The position numbers were made by a program, and so were the translations under genes. Shown here piece by piece: positions 3,591 through 45,213 of a stretch of DNA of 45,213 bases. The number at the start of each line of letters is the position of its first letter. Positions within the stretch are counted from its first letter, which is position 1. Source of the DNA: Chitinophagaceae bacterium (lineage in GTDB: Bacteria; Bacteroidota; Bacteroidia; Chitinophagales; Chitinophagaceae); the NCBI GenBank assembly GCA_004297075.1, contig SCVK01000394.1, positions 1-45,213 of the forward strand, in the 5' to 3' direction. Below the pieces are notes generated by a model. It was not told the origin of the DNA, searched no databases, and was given only the letters and a program-made list of their open reading frames with translations.

Positions 3591-3706
3591 CAGCCCTGTA
3601 TGAGGATTGTTGCAGGGCGAAAGCCTAACAATAAGCCTCAAGCAGAACCAGGGTTAAAGTAAGTAAGCTGAACTCCAGACGCTTAACTTCTAACTCCCGA
3701 CTAAAA

Positions 3707-3779
3707 GGTGCGGTAGCTCAGTCGGTAGAGCAAAGGACTGAAAATCCTTGTGTCGCCGGTTCGATCCCGGCCCACACCA
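3707..3779 (+). tRNA. tRNA-Phe (GAA)
   Basis: A full cloverleaf of 73 nt can be drawn. The acceptor strands are 3707-3713 and 3772-3778. The D stem is GCTC/GAGC (3716-3719 / 3728-3731). The anticodon stem is AAGGA/TCCTT with loop CTGAAAA, giving anticodon GAA at 3740-3742. The T stem is GCCGG/CCGGC (3755-3759 / 3767-3771) with loop TTCGATC. The discriminator is A3779 and the 3' CCA is not encoded. The acceptor stem has one C-A mismatch (GGTGCGG against CCACACC). The adjoining downstream DNA looks acquired, so this gene is a plausible integration target. Confidence 0.95.
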
Positions 3780-3792
3780 CAGACTAGACAAG

Positions 3793-3823
3793 GCTTTCAA
3801 GCGATTAGCTTGGAAGCTTTTTT
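3793..3823 (+). terminator. Intrinsic terminator of tRNA-Phe
   Basis: The 10-bp stem GCTTTCAAGC (3793-3802) and GCTTGGAAGC (3808-3817) has one G-T wobble and a GATTA loop, followed by six T residues (3818-3823). The loop with its closing pairs, GCGATTAGC, is identical to the one in the terminator at 5593-5631. Confidence 0.85.
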
Positions 3824-3826
3824 CTT

Positions 3827-5158
3827 TTGGTACAACATGGGTACAACAGTTGCTCTCTACATAATAAGTTGACCCTAGAGGACACAAGTAAGGGCGTTTT
3901 CTTAATCCCTCTTCAATCCCAAACAGACGAAAGCATAAAATCCTATATCGTCGCTACCAAATATAATGACAGCAATTACTCCTATCGGTTGTACAACAGA
4001 GATTCCTTAGACAGGATAAGACCTACTAATGATACTGTGAGACAAAACCTCACAAATGTTGAAGCGGTGTTCGGCGTTTTTGAAAAAAATATAAATAACA
4101 AGAATACTATTCTGATTTCCGGTACGGTGATCCGGAACGCAAGAATGGAATATAATATAAGCTCACAGGTTAGCCAAAGCAGTAAACCCAGAATGAATTA
4201 TGATTACTGCGTGATTAACATAACAATGACTTTGTATTATGAACAGATCATGTATTCATATATGTACGGCCCACCGGAATATCAGTTGGTAGCTGTAGTG
4301 CTCGACATGCAAATAGACTGTTATGGAGGAGGAGGTAGTGGAGGTGTACAAGGCTTAGATCCAGGTCCGGGAGGAAATGGCGGTAGTGGGTACAACTGGT
4401 GGCAGTTCGGTACAGGCTGGCCGTGGAATGATCCATATCAATATGGATATTATAATGATCCATGGCAGACTTGGTGGACAACAGCGCAAAACATTGGCAG
4501 TGGCGGAGGAGCAGGGTCAGGCAGCAATCAAATAAATGATGAATTTAACCCCTATGCAAGCGATTTTGATCCGGAAGTTGACTGGTGGGATGATCAAAAC
4601 ACGACATATCCTCCGCAGCCATTACCGACCTATAATAATTTCGTAGCAAATTATCCGACGACAAATGGCCATGATATGCCGGCAGGAGATGTTTACCGCT
4701 TGGTGGGAGGTATGCCTTTATCTATTTACATGAGTGACAGTATCAAAAACGGAAATGCCTGCGCGTTGCGTGTTTCACGTGCACTCAACTATTCAGGAGT
4801 AACGATCCCTAATATCCCCAACAAAACATTCCTTGGATCAGACGGTAAATATTATTTTCTTTCTGCCGCCGCTATCGGTGACTGGATGAATAAAACGTTC
4901 GGAACTTCAGGACCGAATGTGATCACAGTTACGAAGGCACAAGGGGGTACGAATGGACAGAATTTTGATAGCTACCTGCAAGGGAATCAGGGAATTTATT
5001 CTCTAAGGGCATCGAGCAACAGCAAATTCGGAGCGACTGGTCATGCCACGTACTATAACGGAACGAACTGTCCTATAGACGCCAAAGGTCTGCACACTAC
5101 AGAATATTACAATGCAGACGGAGGAGTTGAGTATATTAGATTATGGAAATTACCTTAG
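3827..5158 (+). CDS. Tae4-type peptidoglycan amidase (antibacterial effector), 5' end apparently missing
   Basis: The last ~165 residues match the Tae4 NlpC/P60-like DL-endopeptidase pattern. The nucleophile Cys312 sits in NACALRVSRALNYSGVTIP, and the catalytic His406 in FGATGHATYYNG. Cys415 and Asp418 follow in NCPID, and the end is GGVEYIRLWKLP. Such enzymes cut the peptide cross-links of peptidoglycan in rival cells. Upstream lie a Gly/Trp/Tyr-rich linker (about 165-235) and an unrecognised N-terminal region (about 15-160). The only starts near the 5' end are TTG codons: one inside the tRNA terminator T-run (3827) and one at 3869. There is no in-frame ATG before residue 107, no signal peptide and no visible ribosome site. 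I infer that the leader was lost and this is a remnant, although the C-terminal toxin is intact. Delivery route unknown: no type VI genes are in the window. Confidence 0.8.
   Translation: MVQHGYNSCSLHNKLTLEDTSKGVFLIPLQSQTDESIKSYIVATKYNDSNYSYRLYNRDSLDRIRPTNDTVRQNLTNVEAVFGVFEKNINNKNTILISGTVIRNARMEYNISSQVSQSSKPRMNYDYCVINITMTLYYEQIMYSYMYGPPEYQLVAVVLDMQIDCYGGGGSGGVQGLDPGPGGNGGSGYNWWQFGTGWPWNDPYQYGYYNDPWQTWWTTAQNIGSGGGAGSGSNQINDEFNPYASDFDPEVDWWDDQNTTYPPQPLPTYNNFVANYPTTNGHDMPAGDVYRLVGGMPLSIYMSDSIKNGNACALRVSRALNYSGVTIPNIPNKTFLGSDGKYYFLSAAAIGDWMNKTFGTSGPNVITVTKAQGGTNGQNFDSYLQGNQGIYSLRASSNSKFGATGHATYYNGTNCPIDAKGLHTTEYYNADGGVEYIRLWKLP
3829..3848. repeat. Paired 9-bp direct repeats GGTACAACA beside tRNA-Phe (possible att core)
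   Basis: GGTACAACA occurs at 3829-3837 and again at 3840-3848, an 11-base period, immediately after the tRNA terminator and at the point where composition changes to AT-rich accessory DNA. The location resembles a tyrosine-recombinase integration site, but no integrase gene is in view and no second copy was seen downstream. The att interpretation is inference. Confidence 0.35.
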
Positions 5159-5162
5159 TACT

Positions 5163-5564
5163 ATGGAACAGAAAATAAATCTTCCAGTATTCATGCTTAT
5201 TTGCGTAATGCTCAGTTCGTGTGCAAGAAAAGAATGGGTTTCAAAACGCGATGCAGAAAATTCAATCCGGATTGCTGCGATGAGTTCATGTATGTATGAA
5301 GGATTTGGCGGCACAAAATCAGGGATTAACAAAGATGCATCGTTTGCACTTGCGATGGATATGGTACTCGAATCTTATGGACTCGGAAAGCGTGACACCT
5401 TAACAGCACTTGCGAAGGAATTCGCGAGAAATATACGGCCACCACAACATGCTGATTATGCACAGGGAAAGCCGATCATTCGTTCATGCCATGAATTCTA
5501 TCATTCAAAAACGTTGGACTCTTTGATCCGTAGCTGGAGGAAAGAACGATTCCACTATAAGTAA
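5163..5564 (+). CDS. Tai4-family immunity protein (lipoprotein)
   Basis: Starts four bases after the amidase stop codon, as expected for an effector-immunity pair. The ATG at 5163 is preferred over the longer frame from 5112 because it begins a lipoprotein signal peptide (KINLPVFMLICVMLSSC, lipobox LSSC at 17-20). That would place the 133-residue protein in the periplasm, where a Tae4 enzyme acts. The body resembles Tai4: a helical segment with CMYEGFGG and DASFALAMDMVLESYG, then the terminal IIRSCHEFYHSKTLDSLIRS, close to the family's C-x-(D/E)-(F/L)-(F/Y)-x-S-x-x-LD ending. It would bind the amidase and block self-digestion. Family assignment is by pattern and context only. Confidence 0.75.
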   Translation: MEQKINLPVFMLICVMLSSCARKEWVSKRDAENSIRIAAMSSCMYEGFGGTKSGINKDASFALAMDMVLESYGLGKRDTLTALAKEFARNIRPPQHADYAQGKPIIRSCHEFYHSKTLDSLIRSWRKERFHYK

Positions 5565-5580
5565 GTAGAACTCATAATTA

Positions 5581-5859
5581 TTACCATTTTTTAAGCCAAT
5601 TTCCTGCGATTAGCAGGAAATTGGCTTTTTTGTAAGTCAGGCGTATAATGTTCTCAATCGCCGAACTGTTCTTGCTTTCCTGGAGTACGATCGTATTGAT
5701 AAGCAATTGCGGATCTGGCAAGGATGCACAAAGTCCGCTTAATTGACCCAAATGCCTGGCAGCTTTAACAAGATGCTTAAATATTTCATTGGATTCAACA
5801 AAACCCGCCGGGGGTAAATCAGGCAGATCATTATAGGGTAATATCCTTTCGTATGCCAT
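5581..5859 (-). pseudogene. Fic-family protein, N-terminal fragment only
   Basis: The first ~72 of 92 codons match the Fic/DOC N-terminal domain: YNDLPDLPP, a helical segment, LPDPQLLINTIVLQESKNSS and then SSAIENII. SSAIEN (65-70) fits the inhibitory-helix motif (S/T)xxxE(G/N), which in intact class II Fic enzymes blocks the ATP site. The catalytic HxFx(D/E)GNGRxxR core and any C-terminal winged helix are absent. After ENII the frame runs into the neighbouring terminator hairpin, which encodes residues 77-89, and stops. A typical Fic protein is several times longer. The gene was therefore probably cut when the Tae4/Tai4 segment became joined here. AMPylation activity is excluded; whether the fragment is expressed is unknown. 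Confidence 0.75.
5593..5631 (+). terminator. Strong intrinsic terminator after the Tae4/Tai4 pair
   Basis: Perfect 15-bp stem AAGCCAATTTCCTGC (5593-5607) and its complement (5613-5627), GATTA loop, six T residues at 5626-5631. It lies 28 bases after the immunity gene stop. The opposite strand of the same hairpin encodes the last residues of the truncated Fic frame. Confidence 0.9.
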
Positions 5860-41652: not shown

Positions 41653-42558
41653 TTAATCCTCGGATCTCAGATCCAGCCTGATAATCGCTTCATGTGAACC
41701 CTGGCTGAAAATACCCCTGTCGCCAATGCTTTTTCCATAGGAATAGCCAAAACTTAATTTATCATTCAGCTTTATTTCCAGTAACCCCATGATAGCATCA
41801 TCATACCGGTACGAAGCGCCAACACCGATCATGTCTTTCACCCAAACGCTTCCGTTTACGTGCACATCAAATACTTTTCCATTCATCCAGCGCATGTATA
41901 CAGAAGGTTTGCATTGTATTTCATCGCTCAGCGTGGCCGTTATGCCTGTGGTTAAAATCAGCTGCATATTGCGTAACGTAGCGCTGTTAACCGAAAGGAT
42001 CTTATCTACCTTAACCGTACTTACCAGCAAAGATGGAGCAGATAAACTGGCGTAAAACCCGGGCCGCTGGTAATAGATCCCTGCACCCGCGGTAGGCATT
42101 ACCACATTGGTATTATATTGAAAGGAGGGGTCGTTCTGAAAGGGAAGTGCTACAGAAGTCCGGTCTATCCGGTAATTCATCAAACCACCCTGCAGCCCCA
42201 GCGATAAAAATTCATCTTCTTCAAACTGAAGCATGGTAGCAAAACTCATATTGATACCGTTGGTTTTTTCGAGGCCGATGGAGCTGGTGTATAACTGCAG
42301 CCCCAGTCCGAAATGATGTTCCTTCAACGGCGCATCCATCGAAAAAATGCTTGTTTGGGGTGCACCCGGAATACCCGCCCATTGTTTGCGGAAACCCGTG
42401 CTGATACTGAGCCCGCCCCTGCTGCCCGCATAAGCCGGGTTAATGTTCAGCAGGTTAAACAGGTATTGTTTGTTGCTCGCGTCTTCCTGTGCAAAAGAAG
42501 CCATACAACAACTACCCGACAGCAACAGTAAAAAAAGGGTTTTGTAAAAAATTGACAT
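41653..42558 (-). CDS. PorP/SprF-family outer-membrane protein (type IX secretion)
   Basis: Signal peptide ending SCCMASFAQ, then the family start ASNKQYLFNLLNINPAYAGS and GLSISTGFRKQWAGIPGAPQ. The PorP/SprF signature is 'Q-Y-x-x-N-x-x-x-I-N-P-A-Y-A-G'. The remainder is beta-barrel-like. 301 residues, normal. PorP-like proteins help to attach or secrete specific type IX substrates; the gene directly upstream encodes a CHU_C-tailed protein (17-base gap), which is a typical substrate-partner pairing. ATG at 42556-42558. Confidence 0.95.
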   Translation of the reverse strand: MSIFYKTLFLLLLSGSCCMASFAQEDASNKQYLFNLLNINPAYAGSRGGLSISTGFRKQWAGIPGAPQTSIFSMDAPLKEHHFGLGLQLYTSSIGLEKTNGINMSFATMLQFEEDEFLSLGLQGGLMNYRIDRTSVALPFQNDPSFQYNTNVVMPTAGAGIYYQRPGFYASLSAPSLLVSTVKVDKILSVNSATLRNMQLILTTGITATLSDEIQCKPSVYMRWMNGKVFDVHVNGSVWVKDMIGVGASYRYDDAIMGLLEIKLNDKLSFGYSYGKSIGDRGIFSQGSHEAIIRLDLRSED

Positions 42559-42575: not shown

Positions 42576-44423
42576 TTATTTCCATATAGATAAGTATCCA
42601 TAAAAAGTTTCTTCTGATCCGTTTGCTACATCTGTTACCACTACCTTGTAGAAATAAGTACCATCTTCTACACGTTGGTTGGAAGTAGGTCCGCCCTGGT
42701 TATTGGTTCCATCCCAATCGTTTTTGTAATTCTGGTTACGATACACCAGTATTCCCTGTTTATTAAACACCCAGATAGCTGCCCGGTTATTACCCAGACT
42801 ACCGATCACGAACCTGTCGTTGATGCCATCTCCGTTGGGCGACATACCTTCCTGCATCTGGTATTTTGCCGGACTCAGAATCAGGGGTGTTGTTACCGGA
42901 GCGGCTCCGGTAGCGGGTGCAGTGAGGCCGTTTACGGAACGGTTATTGAATACATACTGTGTGTTGTTATATCCGTTCAGGGTTCCTTTCAGGCTGGCTG
43001 TGTTATAATAGTAGCCTTCTTTTTTATTGGTAATAATATTCAGTACCAGTGTAACAGTATCGGTGCTTTTTATTGGCAGCGTGCTGGCGGGAAGCAGGAG
43101 ATCGGTATTGGTGGTTCCGTTAAATACCGGGTTGGCCACCAGCCGGCCACTGGTTTGTATGCTGCTTACGCTGAAACTGGCGGGGGAAGGAAATACCTTA
43201 TCCAGTGTATCCAGTAATTGCACCGTGTTGGCGGTAAGGTTTCCGCGGTTAGTGAGCAGGAAAACGAAAGTAACGCGGTAACTGCCATCGGGCTGACGTA
43301 CAGGCGTAAGGGCTGCTTTGGCCAGTGTAATAGAGTCGGTACGGGTATCCGCGGTTTTCGTAAGAAAATTATCTTCTCCGAGAATAGTAAAAACGCGTGT
43401 ATTGATAAAAGCTCCACGGATATGAGGCCCTGTTGTATAAATACCCGGATTACTCAGTCCCGAAGGTCCGAGTGTATCCCAGGTACGTTCGGTGAAATCG
43501 TATTTGGAAACATAACTATTACCGCGGTGAGTTGTAAAAGCAGGACCTTCTCTGTCTACTACGTGTTGAAAAGCAACAATTGATGGAACCTGGGTATTAT
43601 TTTCCTGGCCGATATTCCAGGTTTGCTGCAGGCTGGCCGGACTACCTGTTGGACCAATAGTAGCGTTCCGGTAAATATTATCGAATACCCTGGTATGTAG
43701 ATCCTGCGGTGTGCTGGTGTTGAACATGATGGAAACCGGCGCATAACTACCTGCCTGTGTACCAATGGGAAATACCACGCTGCCGGTGGCGGAAGAAAGT
43801 TTGGCCCGGTACAGGTTTCCTCCTTTTGGGGTATTGCCGGTGGCTACAAAGCGGTTTTCGGTATAACCGGTGATGGAGCCGGGGTTGTTTTTACCAACCA
43901 TCAGGTTATTCCCGTTGAGCCAGAGTAAACCATCTTCAAAGTGCAGGGTGCCCAGAATATGGGTATCGGTTCCTTCATCGAGATACAAACCACGGGGGTT
44001 GGCTACCAGCAGGTTGGGGAAAGCACCACCGGTTTTGGTAGTGACCGAAAAACCACCGGCCAGGTATTGAGGAGAGCTGCTGTTGAAAAAACGAAAAGCA
44101 CCGCCTACACCCGAAAAAGAATTGGGATTGTTTACCCCCCATTCATCGGGGAAGGAAGCGGTAACGCCGTTACGCCATCTTTCGCCATACATATTAATGG
44201 TAACTCCTTTTACTGAGCCCATTGTGCCATCATTGATGACATTGTTGAATACCGACAGGTTGGCCTTGTTATTTACATACAGGGTGGCATTGGGGGCAAG
44301 GTATAGGGCAAAGTCATTGTTGTTCTGTGCGTTAACGGTTAATACAGAACACAGGAATGCACCCTGCAACAGGCCTGCTGCTTTTCTGATGATGGACGGA
44401 TATGTAAAACAGTGTTTTTTCAA
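42576..44423 (-). CDS. Large surface protein with CHU_C (type B, T9SS) C-terminal sorting domain
   Basis: Signal peptide with hydrophobic core GLLQGAFLCSVLTVNAQ. Residues about 40-330 are beta-rich adhesin-like sequence (ANATLYVNNKANLSVFNNV). About 360-480 resemble a DUF11/CARDB-like Ig domain (SYRVTFVFLLTNRGNLTANT). The last ~90 residues are the gliding-motility-type CHU_C domain: SPNGDGINDRFVIG, AIWVFNKQGILVYRNQNYKN and DWDGTNNQG. It would be exported by the type IX system and kept at the surface. The start is TTG at 44421-44423: no in-frame ATG precedes the signal region, and AGGATC lies a few bases upstream as a possible ribosome site. 615 residues. Operon with PorP and the S74 protein. 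Confidence 0.9.
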   Translation of the reverse strand: MKKHCFTYPSIIRKAAGLLQGAFLCSVLTVNAQNNNDFALYLAPNATLYVNNKANLSVFNNVINDGTMGSVKGVTINMYGERWRNGVTASFPDEWGVNNPNSFSGVGGAFRFFNSSSPQYLAGGFSVTTKTGGAFPNLLVANPRGLYLDEGTDTHILGTLHFEDGLLWLNGNNLMVGKNNPGSITGYTENRFVATGNTPKGGNLYRAKLSSATGSVVFPIGTQAGSYAPVSIMFNTSTPQDLHTRVFDNIYRNATIGPTGSPASLQQTWNIGQENNTQVPSIVAFQHVVDREGPAFTTHRGNSYVSKYDFTERTWDTLGPSGLSNPGIYTTGPHIRGAFINTRVFTILGEDNFLTKTADTRTDSITLAKAALTPVRQPDGSYRVTFVFLLTNRGNLTANTVQLLDTLDKVFPSPASFSVSSIQTSGRLVANPVFNGTTNTDLLLPASTLPIKSTDTVTLVLNIITNKKEGYYYNTASLKGTLNGYNNTQYVFNNRSVNGLTAPATGAAPVTTPLILSPAKYQMQEGMSPNGDGINDRFVIGSLGNNRAAIWVFNKQGILVYRNQNYKNDWDGTNNQGGPTSNQRVEDGTYFYKVVVTDVANGSEETFYGYLSIWK

Positions 44424-44438
44424 AGCGTAGATCCTGTT

Positions 44439-45213
44439 TTATTTTTTTTGAGATGCCAGTTTTTTGATCATGTTTTCCAGTTGCTGCATTTTTTCCTGCA
44501 GTTCCTGGTTTTGTTTTTTCAGGGATTCGATCTGTTCTTGCTGCTCCTGTATGGATTTTACAATGGGCGATACCATAGCAGAATAATTAATAGACAACCT
44601 TCCGGATTTATCTTCTGTTACGAGTTCCGGGAAGATTTTTTGTACATCCTGTGCAATAAAACCTATCTGCCTGTTTTTTCCAAAAGCCGGATTAATCCAG
44701 TTATAGGAAACCGGTTGTAGCGAAAGAATACCTGTGAGAGAAGCAGGTAATGTGCTTATACTCTTCTTGAATCTTTTATCAGAAAGGTTTGTAAAGTTAG
44801 CCACGGTAATATTTGTGGCAGAAATGGTGTTGGCGTCGATGGTGCCAGTGGAAACAATATCAGTCAGGCTGCTGGTAACAGCGCTCATACTGTTAGCTGT
44901 AATATTACCAGAAACAGTAATTGCTGTGAGGTTGCCGAGCGAAGTGATATTGTTTAATGTACCTGTTCCCAGGGTTCCACTGAACGTTCCGCCGGTAATT
45001 GTTCCTGTTGCCGTAATATCTGTAAAGTTGCCAGTAGTGGCACTCACAGAAGATGCGGTCACATTACCGCTGACAGTAATTGCTGTGAGGTTGCCGAGCG
45101 AAGTAATATTATTTAATGTACCTGCTCCCAAGGTTCCACTGAATGTTCCGCCGGTAATTGTTCCTGTTGCCGTAATATCTGTAAAGTTGCCAGTAGTGGC
45201 ACCCACAGAAGAT
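44439..45213 (-). CDS. Repeat protein with C-terminal S74-type intramolecular chaperone domain (partial; N-terminus beyond the window)
   Basis: The frame is open to the right edge, so the start is missing. The visible ~258 residues begin with repeats of 53 residues (ATTGNFTDITATGTITGGTF, then SLGNLTAITVSGN), likely a trimeric beta-helical stalk. The C-terminal domain LSDKRFKKSISTLPASLTGI followed by QIGFIAQDVQKIFPELVTED is the peptidase S74/endosialidase chaperone used by phage tail spikes to trimerise and then cleave itself. A coiled coil (EQQEQIESLKKQNQELQEKM) ends it. The neighbouring CHU_C and PorP genes, 15 bases onward, suggest a surface fibre. Ser-Asp at the domain start would be the cleavage site, by family analogy. 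Confidence 0.88.
   Translation of the reverse strand, partial: SSVGATTGNFTDITATGTITGGTFSGTLGAGTLNNITSLGNLTAITVSGNVTASSVSATTGNFTDITATGTITGGTFSGTLGTGTLNNITSLGNLTAITVSGNITANSMSAVTSSLTDIVSTGTIDANTISATNITVANFTNLSDKRFKKSISTLPASLTGILSLQPVSYNWINPAFGKNRQIGFIAQDVQKIFPELVTEDKSGRLSINYSAMVSPIVKSIQEQQEQIESLKKQNQELQEKMQQLENMIKKLASQKK
44896..45213. repeat. 159-bp coding tandem repeat
   Basis: Two nearly identical units of 159 bases; for example, GTTCCTGTTGCCG starts at 45001 and again at 45160. They encode 53-residue repeats, and the array continues past the window edge. The near-identity at the DNA level points to recent duplication or gene conversion. Confidence 0.9.

Follow-up and report, generated by a model that had tools for sequence, protein, structure and literature searches.

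The locus described here raises the question of how a putative amidase of the Tae4 family might be deployed by a Chitinophagaceae bacterium for which the initial annotation reported a type IX secretion system (T9SS), no type VI secretion system (T6SS) genes in view and a delivery route that would be new or different. The window, that is, the whole stretch of 45,213 nucleotides that was analyzed, harbors the amidase domain at the end of an open reading frame (ORF) lying behind a tRNA-Phe gene, and the gene starting four bases after this ORF codes for a lipoprotein resembling Tai4 immunity proteins (Table 1).

Table 1. Location of the features recognized in the window and basis of each assignment.
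Feature	Position	Strand	Basis
tRNA-Phe (GAA)	3707..3780	+	ARAGORN
Terminator-like hairpin with T-run, between tRNA and toxin ORF	3790..3820	+	2 such sites found vs 2.1 expected in shuffles (weak)
5'-truncated toxin ORF, 443 aa, TTG start	3827..5158	+	ORF and homologue alignment
Remaining part of head domain	3845..4321	+	Profile A3, positions 104-262 of 262, 187.2 bits, E 5.2e-55
Gly/Trp/Tyr-rich linker, limits approximate	4322..4640	+	Sequence; WWQFGTGWPWN at about 4397-4429
Tae4 amidase domain (predicted), residues 310-440	4754..5146	+	Pfam PF14113, alignment, fold match of homologue
Tai4-like immunity lipoprotein (putative), 133 aa, lipobox LSSC	5163..5564	+	Sequence, profile comparison, predicted structure
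Truncated Fic N-terminal fragment, right-hand neighbor	5581..5859	-	PF13784, positions 2-46 of 82, E 2.4e-13
Terminator-like hairpin, 15 pairs, 3' of toxin/immunity pair	5593..5627	+	Hairpin scan
PorP/SprF, T9SS-associated membrane protein	41653..42558	-	PF11751, E 6.2e-66
Protein bearing a T9SS type B sorting domain, control of the sorting-domain scan	42576..44423	-	TIGR04131, 34.6 bits, just below cut-off 35, E 1.6e-8

By profile and by fold, the toxin tip belongs to Tae4 and is a predicted amidase. Indeed, the window toxin matches PF14113 over positions 3-125 of 125 (E 3.2e-18), the alignment places the catalytic pair at Cys312 (4760-4762) and His406 (5042-5044), as originally proposed, and the predicted structure of a homologue matches the Tae4 fold and retains the papain-like Cys-His site. 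The Tai4-like nature of the downstream lipoprotein was also upheld: in addition to its lipobox, a profile built from six Tai4-like proteins (A4) matches the Tai4/Rap structures 3zib (1e-7), 4hff (1.9e-4) and 4j30 (2.2e-4), and the window protein as a single query gave 0.0021 against the solved Tai4/Rap proteins. The relation emerged from this profile but not from Pfam Tai4 (PF16695), which matched neither the window protein nor those of L096, L100 and L113; of the five Tai4-like proteins other than that of the window, it thus missed three and matched two, both below its cut-off of 27.1 (L055, 22 bits; L099, 25.5 bits). A Foldseek search with the model of the immunity protein gave no match with E below 0.4, and its structural comparison with Rap2a/Tai4 is modest and supporting. 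On the strength of the profiles, this putative immunity protein is related to Rap2a/Tai4.

The comparison with intact homologues revealed that the window copy is incomplete. A protein search with its residues 1-165 retrieved four proteins (P0001-P0004); the first, of 540 aa, bears a lipoprotein signal peptide at its N-terminus, the same head and a Tae4 tip, and its residues 110-540 are 99% identical to the window toxin, while in the alignment P0002-P0004 have the head in common with these two proteins and different C-terminal ends. The similarity between the window ORF and P0001 begins at about 3863-3875 and the sequences diverge upstream, the signal peptide and the first ~110-115 residues of P0001, which include part of the head, being missing from the window copy. 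The N-terminal part, taken at first for an unrecognized region in an odd fusion, is actually the remnant of a lipoprotein head domain. Since the lipoprotein signal peptide II and the lipidated Cys present in P0001 are absent from the truncated copy, together with part of the head, the window toxin is unlikely to be exported and, most likely, the immunity has been kept while the toxin would not be deployable. In the linker, the motif WW-x-(Y/F)GTG(W/Y)P is conserved in the window (4397-4429), P0001-P0004, L095 and L096, the remaining part being variable; its W, G, T, P and N columns are invariant in five aligned proteins. The secondary structure predicted for the head shows a helix-then-strands pattern twice.

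Two alternatives can explain the junction: either a module was inserted beside the tRNA-Phe gene and lost sequence at its two ends, or a chimeric contig has brought together the tRNA-Phe locus and a toxin fragment of other origin. The latter possibility is in agreement with the fragmentation of the genome into 568 contigs, with the near-identical full-length homologue on other contigs, with the abrupt change of sequence at both edges of the ~3875-5640 segment, the right one of which cuts the Fic fragment, and with the G+C content of this segment (0.43, compared with 0.48 to its left and 0.46 over the whole window). However, a query spanning 3700-3880 found matches in 54 of 60 genomes (our own included), nearly all of which stop at the end of the tRNA; the DNA behind tRNA-Phe varies among the relatives compared, which is what would be expected, weakly, of a variable site. 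An assembly artefact appears to us rather unlikely, although it deserves some weight. The window copy is probably dead or misassembled; we regard it as a real but probably non-functional member of a family of lipoprotein polymorphic toxins, and the point of interest is this family rather than the window copy. In one relative (L118, genome G011), a minus-strand ORF, Fic-like by eye, lies behind the same tRNA-Phe, comparable to the Fic fragment of the window. Far from this junction, the window also contains two head-to-tail repeats of 159 nt, 77% identical, at 44839-45156, inside the ORF 44439-45206.

To describe the family, a head profile of 262 positions (A3) was built from eight heads. Among 396 genomes sampled from the order, it matches 26 (25 Chitinophagaceae and one member of another family), and among 395 sampled from the phylum a single one, our own. 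The 48 places found in the order (49 rows, two of which represent one ORF) include three in our own genome; as up to six candidates were scored per genome, G417, with six places, has at least six. The head is also carried by L096, from a metagenome bin of an uncultured Mucilaginibacter, and all the places in which it was detected are Bacteroidota records, the area outside the phylum being covered by protein searches and one further search. We examined 45 loci (40 fetched, plus L009-L011, L012 and L013); five of the 48 places, i.e., the window and four others, are not among them. An ORF of at least 400 aa is present in 41 loci, L012 being counted through its Tae4 tip and not through the head, and 32 of these 41 toxins pass the lipobox rule, compared with 17 of 184 neighboring ORFs used as control (longest non-overlapping, at least 150 aa, uncurated). 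A same-strand gene lies within -40 to +60 bases of the toxin in 35 of the 41 cases, and four of the six toxins devoid of such a partner have a contig end at most 350 bases away. According to crude rules, 36 downstream genes code for lipoproteins (3), for proteins with a signal peptide and at most one hydrophobic segment (20), for proteins with at least three segments (4) or for proteins with none of these features (9). None of these counts is made up of independent cases, since the members of the family are related and certain loci nearly duplicate each other (L069/L070, L075/L076).

The tips are heterogeneous. A Pfam scan covering P0002-P0004 and the toxins from 35 among the 45 loci assigned a tip above the cut-off in 7 of the 35 loci, namely Tae4 (L012, L055), DUF6973 (L009, L061), AHH (L057, L079) and DUF3289 (L087), and below it SprT-like (L059, L075, L086, L093) and DUF4329 (L071, L088) domains, most of the 35 scanned tips having no Pfam family. 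Behind both AHH tips (L057, L079) lies Imm11, above the cut-off and without a signal peptide according to the lipoprotein/signal rule, and behind the Tae4 tip of L055 lies the lipoprotein that matches Tai4 below the cut-off; L096 exhibits the plan of the window in an intact form, that is, the head, the Tae4 tip and then a lipoprotein gene with a Tai4-like ending. Judging from these predicted domains, the pairing of tips and immunity proteins would be as expected for polymorphic toxins acting in different compartments. The presence of one head with exchangeable, unrelated tips and, in most cases, an adjacent small immunity-like gene defines a polymorphic toxin family, and we are confident that the window pair is a member of such a family, found mainly in Chitinophagaceae and whose toxins are lipoproteins.

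Other observations concern single tips and their surroundings. DUF6973 (PF22322) is the C-terminal tip in L009 (15563-17392), L061 (2170-3825) and P0004; because in both loci a lipoprotein gene comes next, this domain may be a putative toxin acting in the periplasm. DUF3289 (PF11692, E 1.2e-15) is the tip of a lipoprotein of the head family in L087 (95-1813). Four tips that are alike and share HPV(S/A)GNR by eye (L058, 2915-4840; L066, 2154-3920; L084, 2346-4232; L094, 2369-4138), three of which were run against Pfam with no match, precede genes whose products have three or four hydrophobic segments, as though the putative target were a membrane or a lipid-linked precursor. The tip of P0002 shows, by eye, a His/Asp pattern similar to that of a VanY-like tip. 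Lastly, the second toxin copy of our own genome has, some 2 kb away, a tyrosine integrase in two pieces, one arm/SAM-like and one catalytic (L009, 12516-13124 and 13233-13913).

Tae4 and Tai4 being T6SS families, one might suppose that the toxin is a T6SS effector loaded by a system hidden in an incomplete genome; the assembly is, indeed, just 82.75% complete, related long proteins are named "T6SS effector amidase Tae4 family protein" in the source records, and a single Bacteroidales T6SS locus with a tae4/tai4 pair is described in the accessible text of PMC4714493. The distribution of the sheath gene tssC speaks against this. Tae4 was found in 16 of the 396 genomes of the order: five have a stand-alone copy of 161-169 aa (L101, L103 and L110 read, L104 and L105 by frame length) and five carry it on a lipobox protein (L055 and L012, and, by eye, L100, L111 and L112), the others being the truncated copy of the window, L113 (whose start is outside the stretch), the RHS-like L099 and L102 (by eye) and the fragmentary L108 and L109. 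TssC of the Bacteroidota type was detected in all five genomes with stand-alone Tae4, whereas the 11 whose Tae4 is fused or fragmentary, among them G017, which is a single contig, gave no match (Fisher 2.3e-4); although the probe gave no signal in any of 14 control genomes, the matches obtained here are unmistakable, with E below 1e-200. Moreover, only one of 27 head carriers (G407) harbors TssC. A TssB model found nothing in the same 27 genomes, which adds little because it also missed G407. In our own genome (G000), at its completeness of 82.75%, neither TssB nor TssC was found, in line with the initial remark on type VI genes. The relatives also bear lipoprotein signals, for which an effector loaded in the cytoplasm has no use. 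We therefore consider it very improbable that the toxin is an effector of a hidden T6SS.

Compared with the Tae4/Tai4 pairs of T6SS (PDB 4hfk, 4j30 and 4jur; Rap2a, 3zib), the pairs described here belong to the same tip family and show the same immunity relationship, but the amidase of the intact relatives forms the tip of a lipoprotein, whose length is 540 aa in P0001, 596 in L096 and 636 in L055, the immunity protein is itself a lipoprotein, and TssC was not found in the tested genomes with fused Tae4. The expectation of a different route is in this sense supported in kind, as a route other than T6SS. In L099 and L102, where Tae4 ends an RHS-like protein, an exported protein follows, that of L099 being a lipoprotein that matches Tai4 below the cut-off. 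Four proteins (P0026, P0030, P0049 and P0057) carry source names of T6SS amidase effectors Tae4 and all of them pass the lipobox rule; judging from their N-termini, the name may be misleading.

The T9SS represents another possible route, in which the precursor would cross the outer membrane through SprA. The genome is a T9SS genome, as annotated: SprA was detected in G000 (E 1.8e-155), and PorP/SprF is encoded in the window. SprA is also present in 27 of 27 head carriers, a figure that says little since it covers carriers alone, and polymorphic toxins of Bacteroidetes, the TANFOR toxins, are presented as proposed T9SS substrates in the available part of PMC7073777. On the other side, the NCBIfam scan returned no match for any of nine toxins, hence no T9SS sorting domain, while it detected, just under the cut-off, the control protein of the window; no T9SS C-terminal sorting domain was found in the window toxin ORF, and the C-terminus is taken up by the toxin. 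A T9SS substrate is therefore, in our opinion, improbable.

As regards a possible sorting signal following the lipid-bearing Cys, Lys at position +3 occurs in 30 of the 32 toxins and in all 16 N-termini of SusD-like proteins of the same genome (out of 18 matches, one lacking an N-terminus and one being a further piece of a frame already counted; one of those retained is below the cut-off), as well as in 6 of 17 other lipoproteins, but in none of eight immunity lipoproteins picked by eye. It is accompanied by an acidic residue at +4 or +5 in 24 of the 32 toxins, and the net charge over +2 to +6 is +1 in 28 of them; among the SusD-like proteins it is +1 in 8 of 16 and neutral in 7. SusD proteins are surface lipoproteins in the Bacteroidota studied so far. 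In Capnocytophaga, the export signal K-(D/E)2 described in the accessible text of PMC5080379 combines Lys at +3 with acids at +4/+5, and a net negative charge seems to be required; SusD homologues are there supposedly surface-exposed. The positive net charge of the toxins is unlike this measured signal, and their likeness is to the SusD-like proteins of their own genome, whose exposure is assumed; the flavobacterial Tae4 lipoproteins P0030, P0034 and P0049 have acid-rich starts. Together, these N-termini suggest a surface display matched to the lineage. Since the residues behind the Cys resemble those of their own SusD proteins, the toxins probably face outward, a display that we favor with some reserve, and the immunity lipoproteins, lacking Lys at +3, would face the periplasm.

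The same positive charge, in speaking against the measured surface signal, would fit toxins retained at the inner leaflet of the outer membrane, with passage to kin by outer membrane fusion, as in SitA/SitI of myxobacteria. The plan is shared: in the available text of PMC5562445 and PMC8546572, SitA proteins have a lipobox, a conserved head, polymorphic tips, an adjacent downstream immunity gene and several copies per genome. However, SitA is delivered by TraA/B membrane exchange, and PMC5562445 reports, in that text, no homologues outside Myxococcales and SitA only in species with traAB, while all the places of the head described here are in Bacteroidota; in addition, SitA tips are described as nucleases, whereas some tips of this family are predicted envelope enzymes with exported immunity proteins. 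A SitA-type delivery thus seems to us unlikely, if somewhat less so than passage through the T9SS, and outward display is the reading that we retain.

Besides SitA, the closest known systems, as far as the consulted portions of these papers describe them, are the toxins with a lipobox and a cystatin-like head reported in 2025 (PMC12419801), which likewise combine a common head with exchangeable tips, including a VanY-like one; the most widespread of their immunity folds resembles BamE, those portions mention no Tae4, AHH or DUF6973 tip, and the heads were compared by description only. The TANFOR toxins (PMC7073777, same limitation) are likewise Sec-exported proteins of Bacteroidota with polymorphic tips, but their head is TIGR02542, of which the nine toxins scanned here show no NCBIfam match. 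The BSAP of Bacteroidales are likewise described, in the accessible text of PMC12853789, as antibacterial surface lipoproteins with an export signal; they are, however, MACPF pore formers with receptor-binding C-terminal domains, while the toxins of this family have polymorphic enzyme tips. A full-text literature search recognized no paper on the Chitinophagaceae head family. Lipoprotein polymorphic toxins are already known, and to these the present analysis adds the Tae4/Tai4 pair as cargo, the head found in Chitinophagaceae and the contrast with T6SS.

On the basis of these data, the following mechanism can be proposed. The intact toxin would be synthesized with a lipoprotein signal peptide, receive its lipid on the Cys of C-(R/K)-K and be carried to the outer membrane, where we infer that it is located and displayed, probably facing outward. 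It might then reach neighboring cells by contact or on outer membrane vesicles; such a delivery, without a dedicated injector, has in our view about even chances. In the target, the C-terminal tip would act, the Tae4 amidase cutting cell-wall peptides in the periplasm and presumably killing the cell, while the producer and its kin would be protected by the periplasm-facing Tai4-type lipoprotein encoded by the next gene. Taken as a whole, including membrane location, display and delivery, we consider this explanation reasonably probable, a little less so than display on its own.

Within the order, Tae4 divides cleanly by architecture, TssC accompanying every stand-alone copy and none of the fused or fragmentary ones, and source records of long Tae4 lipoproteins from Bacteroidota name them as T6SS effectors. 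It is tempting to speculate, though we advance it only tentatively, that Bacteroidota possess a general, T6SS-independent form of antagonism based on surface lipoprotein polymorphic toxins, with an export signal matched to the lineage, transfer by contact or vesicles and immunity on the opposite leaflet, and that many Tae4 "T6SS effectors" are tips of such toxins. The family also offers a testable function for DUF6973 and other tips. If the fused Tae4 proteins are deployed weapons, the action of lipoproteins between cells would become testable, for instance in Ferruginibacter sp. SUN002, whose P0026 is a Tae4 lipoprotein with a match to the head profile, and Bacteroidota would own a lipoprotein-borne counterpart of SitA.
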